The notes under the pieces were generated by a model. It had not been told where the DNA came from, searched no databases, and worked only from the letters and a program-made list of their open reading frames with translations. A DNA stretch of 11,652 bases from Candidatus Pelagibacter sp. (GTDB taxonomy: Bacteria; Pseudomonadota; Alphaproteobacteria; Pelagibacterales; Pelagibacteraceae): assembly GCA_013204495.1 (NCBI GenBank), contig JABMNQ010000180.1:1-11652 (forward strand). Direction: 5' to 3'. The translations under genes and the position numbers were made by a program. Below, one piece after another: positions 1,452 through 11,652 of this stretch (the first letter of the stretch is position 1; each line of letters starts with the position of its first letter).

Positions 1452-2435
1452 ATGAAAAAAGAAAAAATTATATTTAAAAATAGTGTTGTAGACTTAGCTC
1501 AACCCAGACTTGGTTCAAAAATTGTTTATTGTACAGATGATTTTTTTGCAAAAGCTTCTAGAATTATTAGTCCTAATGATCCAGTTTTTATTGCAAATAA
1601 ATTTGATAATAATGGAAAATGGATGGATGGATGGGAGAGCCGTAGAAAAAGAACTCAAGGAAATGATCATTTGATATTAAAATTAGGTAGAGCAGGAAAA
1701 ATAAGAAAAGTATTAGTTGATACGGCTCATTTCTCGGGAAACCAACCAGATCAATTTTCGTTATTGGCTACGTCAGATGCTGATTATAAAAAAGCCAAGT
1801 GGGTCACTTTGATTAAACCTTCAAAAGCAAAACCTACTTCAAAGCATTTTTTTACTATCAATAATAATACTACTTTTAAATTTGTTAAATTGAATATTTT
1901 TCCAGATGGAGGGGTAGCAAGATTAAGAATTTATGGTGAAATTGATACAAGCTTATTAAACATAAGCAAAAATAAAATGATTAATTTATCATCTTTAGAA
2001 AATGGAGCTTCTATTTTTGCTTGTAATAATGAACACTTTGGTCAATCAGAAAATATATTAGCTAAAGGAAAAGCAAAAAATATGGGAGATGGCTGGGAGA
2101 CACGAAGACGTAGAGGATCTGGTTATGACTGGGTGATGATCAAATGTTTAAATGGTTCTGTAAAACAATTTGAAATTTCAACACATCATTTTAAAGGAAA
2201 TTATCCTGCTCAATTTTCATTGCAGGGCATTAAATGTATTGGCAAAGATTCTGCTATTCATAAAATACTTTTAAATTCTAAAAATTGGAAAAATTTAATT
2301 GATAAAAGTCAACTGAAGGCCCACAAAGTTCACAAATTTATAGTAAAAACAAAAGTCCAGGTTAATTATTTGAAATTAAATATTTATCCAGATGGAGGTG
2401 TTTCTAGGATTAAGACTTTAGGCATGCATCAATGA
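1452..2435 (+). CDS. alc: Allantoicase
   Basis: Allantoicase (allantoate amidinohydrolase) cleaves allantoate to (S)-ureidoglycolate and urea. The 327-residue protein shows the diagnostic internal duplication of two allantoicase domains. DGWESRRKR (59-67) pairs with DGWETRRRR (213-221), DTAHFSGNQPDQFSL (90-104) with STHHFKGNYPAQFSL (243-257), and FPDGGVARLR (150-159) with YPDGGVSRIK (312-321). Length and repeat spacing are normal for the family. It begins on the base after the puuE stop and ends in an ATGA overlap with allA, so it is an internal operon gene. Using the urea-releasing allantoicase, rather than the ammonia-releasing allantoate amidohydrolase, fits the urease genes downstream. 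Confidence 0.96.
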   Translation: MKKEKIIFKNSVVDLAQPRLGSKIVYCTDDFFAKASRIISPNDPVFIANKFDNNGKWMDGWESRRKRTQGNDHLILKLGRAGKIRKVLVDTAHFSGNQPDQFSLLATSDADYKKAKWVTLIKPSKAKPTSKHFFTINNNTTFKFVKLNIFPDGGVARLRIYGEIDTSLLNISKNKMINLSSLENGASIFACNNEHFGQSENILAKGKAKNMGDGWETRRRRGSGYDWVMIKCLNGSVKQFEISTHHFKGNYPAQFSLQGIKCIGKDSAIHKILLNSKNWKNLIDKSQLKAHKVHKFIVKTKVQVNYLKLNIYPDGGVSRIKTLGMHQ

Positions 2436-2920
2436 TTGTTATTAAGCCTACTTTAATTAATGACAAAAACTTCAAACCTTTCGGAACCATTATTTCAACC
2501 AACAAAAAAAAAGCAAAAATTATTAACGATGGATTTGCTGCCAAATATGAAAATTTAGTAGATTTACGACGATTCAAAAACAAAGGTTTTCCCTCAATTA
2601 ACATTTACAAAGCTAAAAAAAGAACATTTTCGCTAACTATTGATAGGCTGGAGATGCATCCTTTAAGTAGCCAAGCATTCATTCCACTTGAAAATGAGCA
2701 ATTTATTTGCTGTGTAAGTTTGGCTAAATCAAGACCAGATATAAAAGATATCAAAGCATTTATTGTTCCAAAGGGATTAGGAATTATTTATTCTAAAAAA
2801 GTTTGGCACTATCCTCTAATTTCACTTAAAAATATGCAGTTCCTTATTATTGAAAGATATGGAAAAGGGAAGAATTTGGTAGAATATTATTTTGATCAGG
2901 AAATCAAACTCATCAAGTAA
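2432..2920 (+). CDS. allA: Ureidoglycolate lyase
   Basis: AllA cleaves (S)-ureidoglycolate to glyoxylate and urea, the second urea of the pathway. The 162 residues can be aligned to E. coli AllA over their whole length, with FKPFGTII at 14-21, HPLSSQAFIP at 76-85 and GIIYSKKVWHYPL at 117-129; the last two blocks line the active site in this cupin-like family. The start overlaps the alc stop by four bases (ATGA), and its stop TAA shares one base with the ureD ATG (TAATG). Its C-terminal 54 codons recur in diverged form at 11483-11647 near the right edge. The assignment is secure. Confidence 0.95.
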   Translation: MIVIKPTLINDKNFKPFGTIISTNKKKAKIINDGFAAKYENLVDLRRFKNKGFPSINIYKAKKRTFSLTIDRLEMHPLSSQAFIPLENEQFICCVSLAKSRPDIKDIKAFIVPKGLGIIYSKKVWHYPLISLKNMQFLIIERYGKGKNLVEYYFDQEIKLIK

Positions 2921-3720
2921 TGCAAGGCATAATTGATATTCGTGTTAGTAATACCATACCAAGAGTTAATAAAATCTTTCAATCTAGTTTATCAAGAGTT
3001 TTTTTTCCAACAGAACATGACTCAAAAGTTTTAAATTGTATTTTAGTTAATCAAGCAGGGGGTATCCATGAAAATGATAAATTTAAAAATAAAATTACAT
3101 TATCTAAGCAGACTCATTTTAAATTTACTTCTCAAGCTGCAGAAAAAATTTATTTTTCTCATAAAAATTATTCAATAATTAATAATAATTTCTGTATTAG
3201 TGAAAAAAGTCACTTTAGTTATTTGCCTCAAGAATTAATTTTTTTTAATCAATCCAAATTAAAAAAAAATAACTTAATTCATTTAGATGAGGAATCTTCA
3301 TTTTTGCTTGTAGAGCAATTTGTAATGGGTCGTGAATTTTTTAAAGAAAAAATTAAAAAGATATTTTTTGAAGATATAACTAAAATTTTTGTTAATAATA
3401 AAATAGCATATACAGATCAAAGTATTATAGATGACATGGGAAAATTCTATAAGTTTAATTTATTGGCAAGTCAACCACAAAGTTTTGCTAATATAATCTT
3501 TTATAAAAAGAATATAAAAAATTTAAATTTGTCGATAAATAAATTCTTCCCAGATAAAAATTTTTATGGATATAGCTATCCATCTAGCTCATTACTGATA
3601 TGCAAGTTTATTGATAATAATACGCTTCAACTTAAACTAAAATTATTTGATTTAATCAATTATTTAGCAAAAAAAGTAATAAAAAAGAAAGACTATTTGA
3701 ATAAAAATATGTATTTTTAG
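2920..3720 (+). CDS. ureD: Urease accessory protein UreD (UreH)
   Basis: UreD is the scaffold that binds apo-urease and, with UreF and UreG, delivers nickel to the active site. At 266 residues it has normal length. It is the least conserved protein of the set, but shows LVNQAGGIHENDKF at 42-55 where the family has LV(N/H)xxGGxxxGD, PQELIFF at 103-109 (usually PQ-T-I-F), and GREFF at 136-140 in the usual GR position. The GGD core of the first motif is altered to END. Position at the head of ureABC, one base overlapping allA, supports the call. Its composition is extremely AT-rich, with many Asn, Lys, Ile and Phe codons. Confidence 0.88.
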   Translation: MQGIIDIRVSNTIPRVNKIFQSSLSRVFFPTEHDSKVLNCILVNQAGGIHENDKFKNKITLSKQTHFKFTSQAAEKIYFSHKNYSIINNNFCISEKSHFSYLPQELIFFNQSKLKKNNLIHLDEESSFLLVEQFVMGREFFKEKIKKIFFEDITKIFVNNKIAYTDQSIIDDMGKFYKFNLLASQPQSFANIIFYKKNIKNLNLSINKFFPDKNFYGYSYPSSSLLICKFIDNNTLQLKLKLFDLINYLAKKVIKKKDYLNKNMYF

Positions 3721-3723
3721 GTT

Positions 3724-4026
3724 ATGAAATTAACAAATAGAGAAAAAGATAAACTTTTAATAAGTCTTGCAGCAATAGTTTCTAAAAGTAGAAGAAAAAA
3801 AAAGTTAAAGCTTAACTATCCTGAATGTGTTGCTATTATTTCTGATTATGTAGTTGAAGGTGCTAGAGAAGGAAAAACTGTTGCGCAACTAATGTCGGAA
3901 GGTACTAATTTAATAAAGAAAAGTGAAGTCATGGAGGGAGTAAATGAAATGATTAAGGAAGTTCAAGTCGAAGCTACGTTTCCTGATGGAACTAAATTGG
4001 TAACCATTCACAAACCCATTAGGTGA
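3724..4026 (+). CDS. ureA: Urease gamma subunit
   Basis: This is the smallest structural subunit of three-chain bacterial urease, (UreABC)3. The 100-residue length is exactly the family standard. Conserved blocks are [11 protein letters not shown] at 3-13, LNYPE at 30-34, [17 protein letters not shown] at 41-57 and [16 protein letters not shown] at 81-96. It starts three bases after ureD and ends four bases before ureB. The ureA and ureB genes are separate, as in most proteobacteria, not fused as in Helicobacter. Confidence 0.97.
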
Positions 4027-4030
4027 TTAA

Positions 4031-4342
4031 ATGAAACCAGGAGAATTTATTTTAAGTAAAGAGGAAATAAACCTAAATCTTAAAGGAAAAAAATTAACTA
4101 TTAGAGTAAAAAATTCAGGAGATCGGCCAATCCAGGTAGGTAGTCATTACCATTTTTCAGAAACAAATAGTTATTTGTCATTCGATAGAAAAAAGACTTT
4201 AGGATTTCGTCTAAATGTTCCATCTGGAAGTTCAGTACGATTTGAACCTGGGCAAGAAAAAGATGTAGAGCTAACGTCTTTTTTAGGAAAAAAAATAGTT
4301 TTTGGTTTTAATGCAAAAGTTAATGGAAAAATAAAAAAATGA
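4031..4342 (+). CDS. ureB: Urease beta subunit
   Basis: This is the beta subunit of three-chain urease, which packs against the alpha subunit and closes the trimer. The 103 residues carry the hallmark blocks MKPGE at 1-5, [17 protein letters not shown] at 30-46, [16 protein letters not shown] at 51-66 and [13 protein letters not shown] at 69-81. The length is typical. An AGGTGA sequence that includes the ureA stop could serve as its Shine-Dalgarno. The stop overlaps the ureC start as ATGA. Confidence 0.97.
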
Positions 4343-6042
4343 AAATTAGTAGAAAAGCATATGCTGAAATGTTTGGTCCTACTACAGGTGACAAGGTAAG
4401 GTTGGCAGATACCAATTTAATCATAGAGATTGAAAAAGATTTTACCACTTATGGAGATGAAGTTAAATTTGGTGGAGGTAAAGTTATTCGGGATGGCATG
4501 GGTCAAAGCCAAGTATCAAGGTCAGAGGGTGCCGTAGATACAGTCATTACTAATTGTATTATTCTGGATTATGATAAAATTATCAAGGCCGACATCGGAA
4601 TTAAATCTGGGAAAATATTTGCTATAGGAAAAGCAGGTAATCCTGATATTCAAAATAATGTTAATATTATTATTGGTCCTGGTACAGAAGTAATTGCTGG
4701 AGAAAAAAAAATTGTTACCACTGGAGGGATTGATGCGCATATCCATTTTATTTGCCCGCAACAAATAGAGGAAGCTCTTTATTCAGGAGTAACTACGATG
4801 ATTGGTGGAGGTACAGGGCCGGCAACAGGAACCAATGCAACTACTTGCACCCCAGGTCCTTGGCATTTAGAACAAATGTTACAATCTTCAGAAAATTTTC
4901 CTATGAATCTGGGTTTTCTTGGAAAGGGAAATGCATCCAAGATGAAGCCATTGCAAGAACAAATAGCGGCAGGAGCTTGTGGTTTAAAATTACATGAAGA
5001 TTGGGGAACCACTCCATCTGCAATTGATACCTGTTTAAAAATTGCAGATAAGTATGATGTTCAGGTAGCAATACATACAGATACATTGAATGAGTCTGGA
5101 TTTGTTGAAAATACTATTAGTGCTATTTCGGATAGAGTTATTCATGCTTATCATACGGAGGGTGCAGGAGGCGGTCATGCCCCCGATATTATAAAAGTCT
5201 GTGGCTATAAAAATATTTTACCATCGTCAACTAATCCTACTCGACCATTTACTATCAATACTATTGACGAACATTTGGATATGCTAATGGTTTGTCATCA
5301 TTTAGATCCTAAAATTCCAGAAGATATAGCTTTTGCAGAAAGTAGAATTCGAAAAGAGACCATAGCTGCGGAAGATATTCTTCACGACATGGGAGCTTTT
5401 TCTATGATTGCATCCGACTCACAGGCAATGGGTAGAGTAGGAGAGGTTATTATTAGGACCTGGCAAACAGCAGCAAAGATGAAGTTACAGTTCGGTAAAC
5501 ATAAAGAAGAAAAGGGTGATAATGATAATTTTAGAGTAAAAAGATATCTTGCAAAATACACTATTAATCCTGCTATTAGTCATGGAATTGATGATTATGT
5601 AGGGTCTATTCATAAAGGTAAAATAGCTGATCTTTGTGTATGGTCTCCTGATTTTTTTGGAGTAAAGCCAGATTTGATTTTAAAAAACGGATCTATAGTT
5701 GCTAGTGTTATGGGAGATCCTAATGCATCTATACCAACCCCAGAGCCTAATATGTTTAGACCTATGTTTGGTTCTTTAGGTCAGTCACCTGCTCACAACT
5801 CATTTTTATTTGTTAGTCAATTATCAATGGATCAAAATATTAAAAGAAAATTTAAGCTTAATAAAATTTGCTTACCGGTAAGAAATATCAGGAAGTTAAG
5901 TAAGAAAAATATGATTTTAAATAATTATCTTCCAAAAATTGAAGTAAATCCGGAAACATATGAAGTGAGAGCAGACGGTAAAATATTAACTTGTGAGCCT
6001 GCAAAAGAACTCCCAATGGCGCAAAGATATTTTCTTTATTAA
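4339..6042 (+). CDS. ureC: Urease alpha subunit, catalytic
   Basis: UreC hydrolyses urea to ammonia and carbamate at a dinuclear nickel centre. At 567 residues it is collinear with Klebsiella UreC, and every catalytic residue falls at the canonical number: Ni ligands H134 and H136 (DAHIHF), carbamylated K217 (GLKLHEDWG), H246 (AIHTDTL), H272 (AYHTEG) and D360 ([13 protein letters not shown]), plus H219, flap residues C319 and H320 (VCHHL) and R336. It is therefore expected to be active. The GC content is visibly higher than in the accessory genes beside it, as expected for a conserved protein in an AT-rich genome. It overlaps ureB by four bases and precedes ureE by two. Confidence 0.98.
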
Positions 6043-6044
6043 AA

Positions 6045-6476
6045 ATGATACATGTAGAGTCTTATTTAAAAGAAAATTGTAAACTTAGCATAATTGATCA
6101 AATAGTATTAAAATATCAAGACCGTTATTTAAGAAAAAAAGTTTTAAACTCTAAAAAAAATAAAATTTTTATTAATTTTAAAACTGCAGTATATTTATCT
6201 CACAACTCCTATCTTATAACCAATGATGATAAAGCCATTCAAGTAATTGCCCAAAAAGAAAAGATTATTGAAATTAATATCAATAACCCCGTAAAAGGTT
6301 GTGAGGTAGCTTGGCATATTGGAAACAGACATATAGCTGCGGAGGTTGGAAAAAAAAGTATATGTATTTTATTTGATCCGGTTATTTGGAAAATGTTAAT
6401 TAAGTTAGGTTATCAAGTTAATAAAATTAATAAAATTTTTGAGCCACTTGGAGGCGCCTATGACCATAAACATTAA
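6045..6476 (+). CDS. ureE: Urease accessory protein UreE, nickel metallochaperone
   Basis: UreE carries nickel to the UreDFG-urease complex. The 143 residues have a divergent N-terminal peptide-binding domain and a clear C-terminal metal-binding domain: GCEVAWHIGNRHIAAE at 85-100, with the conserved nickel-binding His at 96, and [10 protein letters not shown] at the C-terminus. The terminal histidine-rich tail that many UreE proteins carry is reduced to DHKH. The final 17 bases overlap the ureF coding sequence. The assignment is secure from the GNRH motif and position. Confidence 0.92.
   Translation: MIHVESYLKENCKLSIIDQIVLKYQDRYLRKKVLNSKKNKIFINFKTAVYLSHNSYLITNDDKAIQVIAQKEKIIEININNPVKGCEVAWHIGNRHIAAEVGKKSICILFDPVIWKMLIKLGYQVNKINKIFEPLGGAYDHKH
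6449..6454 (+). promoter_or_regulatory. Shine-Dalgarno TGGAGG deciding the ureF start
   Basis: TGGAGG lies inside the 3' end of ureE, five bases before ATG 6460. It supports that ATG over the in-frame TTG at 6439, which has no such site and would add seven residues absent from the family. Confidence 0.7.
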
Positions 6477-7143
6477 AAAAAAATCTATCTTTTATTCTTT
6501 AAATACAGTTAATTCTAACTACCCTGTAGGAAGTTTTGTTTATAGTCATGGATTAGAATATTTAATAGAAAATAATATTATTGTTAATAAAGAAACCTTA
6601 GAAAACCATATAGATTATTTATTTTTTTATAGTCATTTTAAGCAGGACATAATTTTTATAAATCAAATATACAAAATGAAATCTACCAATAAAATTAAAA
6701 TTATAAAATTACTTGATTTATATCTTTCTTTAAACTGCTCTGAAGAATTAATCACAGAGAGTCTAAATACTGGAAGTTCTTTTTATAAAATTACTAATAA
6801 AATTTATAACTTGAAAAATATTACTTCCTTCTTAAAGAATCATGAGAAACCTTATTGTATTATGTATGCTTTGTTTTCAAAAATACTAAAACAAAATCAT
6901 GAGGAAACGTTAAAAGGGTTTGTTTACGCAACGTTAAATAATCTAGTTTCCAATTATGTAAAGATAAAGCCAGCAGGACAAGAAGAGGGACAGATTATTT
7001 TGAAAAAAATATTTTTAAAATTTGAAAAAAAAATTTCTTTAATGAAACGATGGAGTTTGCATAATCTATCTACATTTAGTTTGTACGCAGATATTGCAAG
7101 CTTTAAACATGAACAAATGTATACTAGGATCTATCAATCATGA
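6460..7143 (+). CDS. ureF: Urease accessory protein UreF
   Basis: UreF bridges UreD and UreG and gates GTPase-driven nickel insertion. From ATG 6460 the protein has 227 residues. The N-terminal block [18 protein letters not shown] matches the family's FPVGAFSYSHGLE consensus. The C-terminal block [18 protein letters not shown] matches the ADIASMRHExxYSRLFRS consensus. The middle helices are diverged and rich in Lys, Asn and Ile. It overlaps ureE by 17 bases and ureG by four (ATGA), so all three accessory genes should be translationally coupled. Confidence 0.93.
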
Positions 7144-7751
7144 AAAATAACCCTTTGCGCGTAGGAATAGGTGGTCCCGTTGGCTCTGGCAAAACAGCTT
7201 TACTGGATTGTTTGTGCAAACAAATGAGAGATCACTTTAATATCGCGGTAATTACTAATGATATTTATACTAAAGAAGATGCTAATTTTTTAATAAAATC
7301 AGGAGCGCTTCCGAAAGAGAGAATTTTAGGAGTCGAGACTGGTGGGTGTCCACATACAGCTGTAAGAGAAGATGCATCTATTAACTTAATTGCTGTTGAA
7401 AAAATGTGCAATAAGTTCAAAAATCTTGATTTAATTTTTATTGAGTCAGGGGGTGATAATTTAGCTGCAACCTTTAGTCCTGAATTAGCTGATATTATGA
7501 TATATGTCATTGATGTAGCTGAAGGAGAAAAAATACCAAGAAAAGGTGGTCCTGGTATTACCAAGTCAGACCTGCTAGTCATAAATAAAATTGATCTGGC
7601 AAAATATGTTGGTGCAAGTTTAAAGATTATGGAAAGAGATACTAAAAAAATGAGAAAAAAATTACCGTATGTTTTTACAAATTTAAAAAAAGGAACTAAT
7701 TTAAATTCGGTGATAAAATTTTTAATTAAAAAAGGAGGGCTAAATGACTAA
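7140..7751 (+). CDS. ureG: Urease accessory protein UreG, GTPase
   Basis: UreG is the SIMIBI-class GTPase that binds nickel and hands it to urease on GTP hydrolysis. The 203 residues are of normal length. Visible are the P-loop GGPVGSGKT at 11-19, TNDIYTKED at 39-47, the nickel-binding Cys-Pro-His motif at 70-72 (GGCPHTAVR), [17 protein letters not shown] as the switch/G3 region, and NKIDL as the G4 guanine-specificity motif. All essential residues are present. The last eight bases overlap the small His-rich gene that follows, whose Shine-Dalgarno lies within ureG. Confidence 0.97.
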
Positions 7752-7917
7752 ATTTTTATCAATCATAACTATTTTGTTAATTTCTCTGCAAAATAATGTA
7801 TACGCACATCCAGGACATGCAGGAGATCATTTTCATGATTTTCCAGCAGCATTTGTTGCGATTGCAGGAAGCTTGATAGTTATCGGTGTTGTAGGTTTGC
7901 TGTATAAAAAAAAATAA
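7744..7917 (+). CDS. 57-residue secreted/membrane His-rich small protein coupled to ureG
   Basis: I do not recognise a named family. Residues 1-21 look like a signal peptide (MTK, then a hydrophobic core [12 protein letters not shown], then VYA as a cleavage site). The predicted mature N-terminus is [12 protein letters not shown], with His at 22, 25, 29 and 31 and Asp at 28 and 32, a plausible divalent-metal site. Residues about 35-53 form one transmembrane segment, followed by a KKK tail that would lie in the cytoplasm. A strong Shine-Dalgarno (GGAGGG, 7734-7739) lies inside ureG, and the gene overlaps ureG by eight bases. The start resembles the AHxGH beginning of HupE/UreJ nickel permeases, but only one membrane span remains. 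Nickel or proton handling at the membrane is inference. Confidence 0.75.
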
Positions 7918-7949
7918 TTACAAATCTTCGAAAAGTTGACCCCAATCTG

Positions 7950-8444
7950 TTATTTAACTAAATCCTTTAATCGAAAGTTTGCAATTTTTTCTACTTGTTT
8001 TTTTGCAGTTATAAACTCTTTACTTATAGAGTTGTTAACTCTTTTTTTAAAACTATCTAAAATTATTTTTTTTGTTTTTCCTTTGACCGCAATGATAAAA
8101 GGAAAACCAAATTTTTGTTTATATTCCTTATTGAGGTGTTGAAATTCATTAAATTCTTTTAGAATACACTCGTTTAATTTGGCATTTTTTTGTTCTCTAG
8201 TAGACTCTTTGGTTAGTTTTTGTTTAACAGCAAGATCCGGATGTGCTCGTAAAATTTTTAATGCTCGCTTTTTGGTTGCATTGTTAAAAATAGCTATTGC
8301 GGTATAAAAAAGTGTTTGTTTATTTTTAAATGGTTTTTTAGTATACATTTTATCTGCAATCCATTTAGTTTTTTCAAAAATATTTTGAAAATAACTAACA
8401 AATTCAGATTTTTTTAGAATATTTATATTTTTTACTGATTTCAT
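7950..8444 (-). CDS. uraD: OHCU decarboxylase
   Basis: UraD decarboxylates 2-oxo-4-hydroxy-4-carboxy-5-ureidoimidazoline to (S)-allantoin, the third step from urate. The 164 residues show the catalytic His in LRAHPDLA (H68), LTKESTREQ at 77-85, LNKEYKQKFGFPFIIAVKG at 104-122 and KIANFRL at 153-159, all characteristic of the family. Length is normal. It is the only gene on the minus strand. It converges on the small His-rich gene with 32 bases between the stops, and diverges from uraH across 56 bases. I saw no convincing hairpin between the convergent stops. Confidence 0.95.
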   Translation of the reverse strand: MKSVKNINILKKSEFVSYFQNIFEKTKWIADKMYTKKPFKNKQTLFYTAIAIFNNATKKRALKILRAHPDLAVKQKLTKESTREQKNAKLNECILKEFNEFQHLNKEYKQKFGFPFIIAVKGKTKKIILDSFKKRVNNSISKEFITAKKQVEKIANFRLKDLVK

Positions 8445-9949: not shown

Positions 9950-11251
9950 ATGAGTGGAAAGTCTCGAAGCGATCAGTCGCTTCCTTTAAACCAAGCAATC
10001 CCTTTAGGAATTCAACATGTTCTAGCTATGTTTGCTGGTAACATTACCGTTCCTATTATTGTTGCTGGTGTCTTTGGACAAAGTCCAGAAGAAAAAATAT
10101 TTTTAATTCAGATGGCACTATTTATAGCCGGTGTCGCAACACTTATTCAAACTATTGGATTTAAAGATGTGGGATCAAGGCTTCCAATCATTCAAGGAAC
10201 TAGCTTTGCATTTATTCCCATTATGCTTCCCTTTAAAGCGGCAGGTTTAGGAGCAGTTTTTACAGCAGCATTTATCGGTGGAATTTTTCAATTCATTCTT
10301 GGTAAAGTATTAAAACCAATAAGACATATGTTTCCTCCTTTAGTAACAGGAATCGTCGTTTTGACGATTGGACTTAGTTTGCTAAAAGTAGGGTTTATGT
10401 ATGCTGGAGGTGGTGCGTGGTTAATGAATAACAAACCAGAAATCTTTGCAAATTCAAATCATCTTATTATTTCCGGAACTGTTTTGGTTGTAACTTTACT
10501 TTGTAATATTAAAGGAAAAGGGATGGTGTCTTCAGCTTCTATTCTTATTGGAATTGTTGCTGGATTTTTGGTGGCTATGTCTTTTGGAATGGTAAATTTT
10601 GGAAAAATAGCAAACGCACCTTGGTTTGCTCTTCCTATGCCTCTTCAATACGGAATTAGCTTTGTTCCTGGAGCCATCATTCTCATGTTGTTTATGGCAG
10701 TTGTAACGACGATTGAAACTATTGGTGATATTAGCGCAACTACGATTGGTGGAGATAATAGAGAAGCAACAGATAAAGAATTAGCAGGCGGAATCATGGC
10801 TGATGGTCTTGGTACTGCATTGGCAGCTTTGTTTAATGCTTTTCCAAATACTTCTTATTCTCAAAACGCAGGCTTAGTTGCATTTACTGGTGTTATCAGC
10901 AGGCATGTTGGAACTATCGCGGGTGTTATTTTAATTTTGATGGGTTTATTTCCAAAACTAGGAGGAGTAATCGCGTCAATGCCTGAGTCAGTTATAGGTG
11001 GTGCTGCTATTATTATGTTTGGATTGATTACTTCAGCTGGAGTTAAATTGATTTCAAGAGCGGAAATGAATCAAACAAACCTTTTAATCTTAGGACTATC
11101 CTTGTCCTTTGGTTTAGGCATGTCTTTACTGCCTCAGTTCGTGGCTCATATTCCTGATTTTGGAATTAGCTTAAAACTTTTATTAACCACTGGATTAATC
11201 CCAGCTGGGATCTTGGCATTTATTTTGAACGCTACTCTTAATAAAAAATAA
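9950..11251 (+). CDS. NCS2 family purine permease (urate/xanthine type)
   Basis: This is a nucleobase:cation symporter-2 transporter of 433 residues with about 12-14 hydrophobic segments. Diagnostic features are GIQHVLAM in the first span (H23), SRLPIIQGTSFAFI at 76-89, TTIETIGDISATT at 253-265 (E256, matching the essential Glu of span 8), DGLGTALAALFNAFPNTSYS at 285-304 (D285), and the NCS2 signature QNAGLVAFTGVISRHVG at 305-321, with Q305 and N306 at substrate-binding positions. The QN signature favours xanthine/urate-type transporters over uracil permeases, which have Glu there. Its place next to puuD makes urate or xanthine import the likely role. It has its own promoter-like sequence and ribosome binding site and is followed by two inverted repeats. 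Exact substrate cannot be read from sequence alone. Confidence 0.92.
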   Translation: MSGKSRSDQSLPLNQAIPLGIQHVLAMFAGNITVPIIVAGVFGQSPEEKIFLIQMALFIAGVATLIQTIGFKDVGSRLPIIQGTSFAFIPIMLPFKAAGLGAVFTAAFIGGIFQFILGKVLKPIRHMFPPLVTGIVVLTIGLSLLKVGFMYAGGGAWLMNNKPEIFANSNHLIISGTVLVVTLLCNIKGKGMVSSASILIGIVAGFLVAMSFGMVNFGKIANAPWFALPMPLQYGISFVPGAIILMLFMAVVTTIETIGDISATTIGGDNREATDKELAGGIMADGLGTALAALFNAFPNTSYSQNAGLVAFTGVISRHVGTIAGVILILMGLFPKLGGVIASMPESVIGGAAIIMFGLITSAGVKLISRAEMNQTNLLILGLSLSFGLGMSLLPQFVAHIPDFGISLKLLLTTGLIPAGILAFILNATLNKK

Positions 11252-11261
11252 TTAAATATAG

Positions 11262-11293
11262 TATTTTCGCGGGAAATTATTCCCGCGAATATA
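11262..11293 (+). terminator. GC-rich hairpin after the permease
   Basis: TTCGCGGGAA (11266-11275) and TTCCCGCGAA (11280-11289) are perfect reverse complements around the loop ATTA; beyond one mismatch, three more pairs form. It lies 14 bases after the permease stop and is the most GC-rich short segment of the window. The downstream side is TATAAAAATTTAT rather than a clean T-run, so it is terminator-like but not textbook. Confidence 0.6.
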
Positions 11294-11316
11294 AAAATTT
11301 ATCTATAAATTTTTAT
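11291..11316. repeat. AT-rich perfect inverted repeat next to the hairpin
   Basis: ATAAAAATTTAT (11291-11302) and ATAAATTTTTAT (11305-11316) are perfect 12-base reverse complements separated by CT. It abuts the GC-rich hairpin and ends in a T-rich stretch, so the pair may act together as a terminator. The arms contain only A and T, so a chance origin is easier here. Confidence 0.5.
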
Positions 11317-11482
11317 TTATAAATCAATACAATATTGGCTTATTTCATTAATAAATAGGCGGCATAAAAAAATAAAAGCAAAAGTAAAAAAAATTTTTTA
11401 TGTAAAGTCGAAACCTTATCCTAGTATTAAAAACTTATTAAAAAAATTACAAGTTAGCAGTATGCTCCAATAAGCTAGAAAA
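11317..11482. other. Intergenic stretch with no confident feature
   Basis: The sequence between the inverted repeats and the allA fragment is very A-rich. Apart from the possible eroded allA remnant in frame with the downstream fragment and a small 5-base dyad (AAGCT/AGCTT, 11472-11486), nothing can be supported here. Confidence 0.4.
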
Positions 11483-11647
11483 GCTTTTCTCATACCTAAA
11501 GATCATGGAATTATTTATAATAAAAACGTTTGGCATTTTCCTTTAATCTCATTAAAAAAAATGAACTTTTTAGTTTTAGAGAGAAGAGGTAAAGGAAAGA
11601 ATTTAGTTGAATATTTTTTTGATCAAAAAATTCAATTAAGAAAATAA
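11483..11647 (+). pseudogene. 3' end of a second, diverged allA copy (5' part missing)
   Basis: These 54 codons align without gaps to AllA residues 109-162 (2756-2920); by hand, 38 of 54 residues are identical and most changes are conservative. Shared blocks are GIIY, KxVWHxPLISLK, ERxGKGKNLVEY, FDQ and the terminal Lys. A stop (TAA 11471-11473) lies just upstream in the same frame, and there is no usable start, so no full AllA is encoded. The same frame at about 11309-11470 is open and faintly resembles AllA residues 35-80 (for example an RR followed by a Lys-rich stretch, then a KSK region and SS), as if eroded with an internal deletion; this upstream part is speculative. Confidence 0.8.
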
Positions 11648-11652
11648 TGCAA
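11647..11652 (+). other. Possible start of a second ureD-like gene at the window edge
   Basis: The allA fragment ends TAATGCAA, exactly as the intact allA/ureD junction at 2918-2925. The shared base and the codons ATG CAA (Met-Gln) are preserved. Six bases cannot identify a gene; the context suggests that another ureD copy, or its remnant, continues beyond the window. Confidence 0.35.

Follow-up and report, generated by a model that had tools for sequence, protein, structure and literature searches.

The window analyzed here is a stretch of 11,652 nucleotides from Candidatus Pelagibacter sp. and makes up an entire contig (C172). The draft genome to which this contig belongs has 197 contigs and a total length of 1,224,312 bases, and is 85.67% complete with 2.49% contamination. 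The purine operon of the window encloses a urease operon. The intact ureidoglycolate lyase gene allA (positions 2432 to 2920, plus strand; PF04115, E 1e-40) shares a 4-base overlap with alc and a 1-base overlap with ureD, and the intact ureDABCEFG genes occupy 2920 to 7751 on the same strand. For ureA, ureB, ureE, ureF and ureG, we take the names from tblastn comparison with urease loci. A small histidine-rich gene of 57 codons (7744 to 7917, plus strand) follows ureG and overlaps its stop. To the right of these lie uraD, uraH, puuD and the NCS2 purine permease gene ncs2 (9950 to 11251, plus strand; PF00860, E 9.6e-95). Since the urease lies inside the purine operon, production of urea from allantoin and the enzyme that splits urea may be co-expressed. 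The left end of the contig holds a 5′-open gene of the Asp/Glu/hydantoin racemase family (2 to 499; PF01177, E 1.6e-21), possibly an allantoin racemase; no overlap with another contig end of the draft was found there, and the matches that did appear were short (43 bases or fewer).

The right end of the window carries part of a second allA. Positions 11480 to 11641 on the plus strand translate into 54 residues, 38 of which are identical, without gaps, to residues 108-161 of the window allA; with a further AAA codon this 3′ third (allA′) extends to 11644 and is closed by a TAA at 11645-11647. A tail of exactly this length and likeness was part of the original prediction and is confirmed by translation, by a search of the draft genome (E 4.8e-22), and by the ureidoglycolate lyase profile PF04115, which it matches with 42.5 bits against a cut-off of 23 (E 7.1e-11). 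On these alignments, chance likeness to allA is excluded. The match covers only profile positions 108-161 of 162, so allA′ lacks the complete domain by which a working ureidoglycolate lyase would be recognized. Its stop overlaps by one base the ATG at 11647-11649 that opens a second ureD, whose first two codons (ATG CAA; 11647-11652, plus strand) end the window. In the intact copy, TAA 2918-2920 and ATG 2920-2922 overlap in the identical way, and the junction TAATGCAA is common to both sites, as had been noticed from the letters alone.

Between ncs2 and allA′ lies a spacer of 228 bases (11252-11479, plus strand). Immediately downstream of ncs2 it contains an inverted repeat, whose arms lie at about 11267-11276 and 11280-11289. 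A frameshift-tolerant comparison of this spacer, using P0004 residues 1-106, P0001 residues 1-107 and P0004 residues 85-106 as queries, detected no 5′ part of allA, as 45, 26 and 20 of 150 Markov resamples reached or beat the observed scores. The same-frame peptide KPYPSIKNL in the spacer, allA-like by eye, was rejected because the comparison did not rise above the resamples. Since the spacer does no better than resampled sequence, the 5′ part of allA′ looks deleted and not merely eroded; of the two fates proposed for it at the outset, loss is the likelier.

Because the window is all of C172, allA′ sits exactly at a contig end. The terminal 41 bases of C172 (11612-11652, plus strand) recur without change at one end of contig C118 (locus L137, 4,294 bases; 4254-4294, minus strand), and in a search of the draft genome this word occurs at these two sites only. 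The identity looks like an assembler's word overlap between neighboring contigs, and C172 and C118 are presumably contiguous in one chromosome, although a 41-mer common to two ends can also join two strains. When 24 contigs were compared at their ends, C172-C118 was the sole overlap among the 18 that were readable; 6 of 20 sampled contigs were masked, and their apparent overlaps were runs of N that we dropped. As the two ends share these 41 bases, the sequence past the window edge can be read on the minus strand of C118, where the second ureD continues.

Beyond the overlap, C118 continues with TAATGCAAGG, and reading on gives ATGCAAGGTATCATTGATCTTAAAGTTATAGATCAAGATACC. The second ureD starts (MQGIID) and then, without a change of frame, passes into the last ~43 codons of ureG. 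The resulting fusion has 49 codons and is open in C118; its last 43 residues agree with ureG codons 161-203 at 36 positions, and the ureG end is found with E 4.6e-17. Only the first ~6-9 codons of ureD are retained. The intact gene begins with MQGIIDIRVSNT, and MQGIID is also present in P0118 to P0121. The boundary between the two fused parts is ambiguous within CTTAAAGTT, a stretch that fits both genes. Compared with the intact copy, 4,682 bases (~4.7 kb) are missing, from ureD codon 7 (2938) to ureG codon 161 (7620). The second copy thus has its ureD start, with the same junction as the intact copy, and lacks ureABC and all complete accessory genes: the operon is left as a scar, in which both edges are present, in order and orientation, and the middle is missing. 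A fusion of 49 codons is not expected to have urease function.

It had been suggested that a second ureD or a whole urease operon may lie just past the edge of the window. A complete operon after the tail would explain the conserved junction and the ureD-like start, but C118 passes from about codon 9 of ureD directly into ureG, and the draft genome holds one ureD and one ureC, with no second intact copy of either found. A complete second operon is refuted for C118, and we give it hardly any weight otherwise. A strain with an intact second operon could exist, and the assembly may have branched toward it at the 41-mer, where the contig breaks.

The scar is also seen beyond this assembly. A protein search with the 49-residue fusion returned a single protein, P0116, of 33 residues, whose record lists 19 contigs of up to 32,561 bases drawn from ncbi, mgnify, jgi, lgn and ena. 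Removal of one A from a run of seven in C118 gives P0116 exactly, letter for letter. P0116 therefore has the identical ureD::ureG join, but its reading frame shifts inside the fusion and ends short of the small gene; its occurrence is taken from the protein record. These 19 records of the join show that the scar did not arise as an artifact of this assembly. The concern that the end of the window might be a chimeric assembly product is thus answered for the scar, though not for the join between ncs2 and allA′ inside C172. Either the fusion is frameshifted in most of the recorded copies or a homopolymer error is involved, possible on the side of C118 as on that of P0116, with C118 encoding the longer form. 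One source calls P0116 a urease maturation GTPase, and a short gene call of this kind need not indicate urease, since it can be a fossil. With a 495-base query for the scar, the longest match outside its own genome among 399 genomes of the genus was 104 bases, at a racemase end in G535; 86 of the 399 matched at E 1e-4 or better, the others through short matches, and none apart from its own genome showed the scar. Viral contigs gave no match. In the literature on SAR11 urease and on urease-operon loss, we found no published account of such a scar.

The fusion also bears on the suggestion that the tail is retained because it drives translation of the next gene. The next gene is the scar itself, and the P0116 version is frameshifted in it. 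Selection might nonetheless keep the remnant if the chain of stop/start overlaps (TAATG, then ATGACTAA) carried ribosomes to the small gene, given that both overlaps survive, that the fusion is in frame in this genome, and that the small gene is intact in the scar copy, with a 13-residue core unchanged between the copies. An in-frame fusion, however, has a one-in-three chance, and the form recorded on 19 contigs ends before the small gene is reached. We consider retention for this purpose very improbable.

What follows the scar is twinned with what follows the intact operon. After the relic ureG, C118 carries a diverged copy of the small gene (L137 3944-4117, minus strand; 34 of 57 residues identical), then a complete racemase gene (L137 3211-3936, on the strand opposite to the fusion and small gene; PF17645 and PF01177) that ends in ITGWGQLFQDL and a stop, and then a TRAP transporter set. 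After the small gene of the window comes a racemase scrap (7918-7953, minus strand) consisting of the last 11 codons, ITDWGQLFEDL, and a stop. The scrap is cut off where uraD ends (7950-8444, minus strand; PF09349, E 9.8e-43), the uraD stop overlapping it, and marks the joint between two units. Altogether, an alignment of 341 bases of C118 with window 7620-7953 covers the ureG end, the small gene and the racemase end and shows 75.7% identity. Since the small gene and the racemase end accompany both copies, a unit made up of these two together with allA and ureDABCEFG once existed in duplicate, and if C172 and C118 are neighbors, uraD-uraH-puuD-ncs2 would separate the two units. The racemase was found in one of 377 genomes of the order, namely its own.

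The small protein has 57 residues, rich in histidine, and one likely membrane stretch. Compared with DUF6732 (PF20506), the two copies reach 19.3 bits (E 0.001) and 13.9 bits (E 0.051), short of the family cut-off of 27. In a plus-strand scan of urease loci with a home-made pattern, seven loci (L028, L036, L068, L074, L083, L085 and L090) have ORFs of 51-58 residues of the AHPGAHLHPHG type between ureA and ureC. The protein is possibly a periplasmic metal-binding accessory peptide of urease.

At its left end, C118 matches the interior of contig C19 over 60 bases at 97% (102 bases at 96%), which is not an end overlap. C19 carries there a similar looking fusion (L232 about 7031-7175), in which a gene start, 90% like C19 1423-1525, is joined to the 3′ end of the C118 cupin gene (C118 141-242, 96% over 102 bases); it contains an in-frame TGA. 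The C19 fusion hints that this genome may repeatedly lose genes by deletions inside operons of the form seen in the scar.

The two copies are probably of different lineage. The allA′ tail shares 46 of 54 residues with P0004, compared with 38 for the allA of its own genome and 33-35 for P0002, P0003 and P0005, and in a tree of 16 rows and 54 columns it groups with P0004 and P0005, with a support of 86/87 that is below the usual 95/80 mark. Relative to the intact copy, 38 of 54 residues are kept in the tail, 34 of 37 in the ureG end, and 34 of 57 in the small gene. In neutral simulations that started from the intact copy under a simple AT-leaning model, none of 2000 runs reached the observed retention for any of the three pieces; stop codons appeared in 94% of runs for the tail, 68% for the ureG end and 92% for the small gene, whereas the real pieces contain none. 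This retention implies that the copies diverged mostly while both were under selection, which favors import or an old, retained duplication and argues against a recent duplication of the cell's own cluster with subsequent decay of one copy. A recent duplication would account for the gene order and stop/start overlaps being alike in both copies. It is hard to reconcile with dS values against the intact copy of 1.93 in the tail (30.7 sites), apparently near saturation, 0.6 in the ureG end and 0.87 in the small gene, all rough figures from 22-37 sites, with residues retained far beyond neutral drift, or with a tail nearer to P0004 than to its own allA, and we regard it as largely refuted.

Because most of the divergence arose under selection and the relic is nearer to P0004 than to its neighbor, the two sets were probably brought together by import from a related lineage. 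Over 54 codons, an old duplication kept in several lineages would look the same as import. These were the two origins first put forward, and the twinned flanks and the affinity of the tail for P0004 support their common element, that a second allA-ureD set, probably of different lineage, was once present here.

The host of this region is in doubt. The puuE, alc, uraH and puuD of the window are only 52-69% identical to those of the genus; puuD, at 67-69%, falls outside the range among five relatives (79-97%), and the NCS2 permease, at 79-83% to SAR11 relatives, lies in the lower part of theirs (80-96%). On contig C181 of the draft lies another puuE-alc pair (L231 1143-3034), this one of genus type. 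This pair is 73-90% (puuE) and 57-76% (alc) identical to SAR11 loci, whereas the window pair reaches 61-63% and 52-55%. C181 ends 31 bases after alc, at the position occupied by allA in L095 and L097. With the window purine genes far from the genus and the C181 pair of genus type, C172 and C118 may be misbinned; the window set may have been imported as an island, or its contig may belong to another lineage and have been binned with this draft. Compared with the draft, the composition of C172 scores 0.613 and that of C118 0.615. Both values fall in the range spanned by 11 other contigs (0.491-0.811), but equally high scores are reached by loci of other taxa (L021, 0.72; L016, 0.824), so that composition cannot settle the host. 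The host question leaves the nature of the feature unchanged.

Another alternative is a mixture of strains, in which the operon and the scar come from different co-occurring strains or species and were joined at the ncs2-tail spacer or at the 41-base overlap; the scar would then be real but not beside an intact copy. Its location at a contig end of a draft with the fragmentation, completeness and contamination given above, the two puuE-alc sets within this draft, and an allA′ tail of another lineage would all fit. A chimeric join inside C172, however, needs a shared word, and the spacer has no second match longer than 26 bases within the genome. Moreover, a tandem arrangement would be expected to give just this picture, a racemase scrap that runs into uraD and a whole racemase gene on C118. 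We judge a mixture unlikely. The main doubt, together with the host assignment, is that the ncs2-tail path and the C172-C118 link both rest on one assembly.

The explanation we favor, with good though not full confidence, is that two diverged urease sets stood in tandem and that one of them was deleted, with allA′ forming the left edge of the resulting scar. Each copy would have comprised allA-ureDABCEFG-small gene-racemase end, and uraD-uraH-puuD-ncs2 would have separated the two. The left copy would have stayed intact, as it is in the window, and the right copy would have lost two pieces. The first would be the initial two thirds of allA, up to the spacer after ncs2, and the second the stretch of about 4.7 kb from ureD codon ~7-9 to ureG codon ~161, presumably by a short-homology deletion at CTTAAAGTT, in which the remaining ends are joined in frame. 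The residue of the right copy would then be the 49-codon fusion of ureD start and ureG end, followed by the small gene and racemase. We infer both the order of these events and the mechanism of deletion.

How the tandem arose can be proposed more tentatively. It is possible that recombination in shared flanks placed an imported purine-urease set next to the resident one, that both were carried for some time, and that one was removed by short-homology deletion, leaving a scar that is now common (19 contigs). If such an exchange in place occurred, resident, double and resolved states could occur in one environment, and the ureD::ureG join and the racemase-uraD joint provide exact sequences for counting these states in metagenomes. 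According to a SAR11 survey, urease decides whether a purine-eating marine bacterium keeps the purine nitrogen or returns it as urea (PMC11698098). A scar beside an intact operon would mean that this trait turns over via the addition and deletion of whole diverged sets. The relic is a clear case of ordinary genome turnover, with survivor and scar readable side by side.

Among 399 genomes of the genus, ureC is present in 32, its own included, and the window UreC differs from the SAR11 urease type in being 73% identical to that of all 31 others. Of 1,414 candidates, 7 are related to the window ureD, at 59-99% identity, and none of these carries an ncbi name. With P0004 as the query, allA was found in 77 of 397 genomes of the order, again including its own, the best other being 53% identical; peptide patterns detected no allA in genome_contigs or viral_contigs. 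The SAR11 loci L219-L221 hold puuE, allA, alc, uraD, uraH, puuD and ncs2 in one region without urease, and in the SAR11 urease loci L224 and L225 the urease stands apart from purine genes, in contrast to the window, where it lies inside the purine operon.

The gene content resembles the SAR11 purine set as described in the survey, in which puuE, alc, ureidoglycolate lyase, uraD, hiuH (uraH here), an NCS2 permease and urease free purine nitrogen; urease is given there for ~5% and purine catabolism for ~18-22% of genomes, and the two are read as nitrogen harvest versus urea release (PMC11698098). The history proposed here likewise recalls SAR11 polymorphism. SAR11 genomes gain, duplicate and delete genes in variable places, and that study describes variable regions, duplicates lost in one strain, and rearrangements mostly at operon boundaries (PMC2217521). 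The present case differs from that polymorphism in that a diverged seven-gene operon was lost beside its intact counterpart, with both ends of the deletion readable. Among other alphaproteobacteria, locus L021 (SAR116, AG-895-J18) is similar in having allA and alc ~2.5 kb from ureD, and uraH and uraD ~7 kb after ureG; it differs in that allA and alc are on the strand opposite to the urease genes, and no relic was noted. Finally, in xenologous operon replacement, the resident set gives up its role to an orthologous one that derives from a different lineage. Here, with the direction of exchange and the donor presumed, the arrangement would differ in that the losing set leaves a readable scar near the winner.
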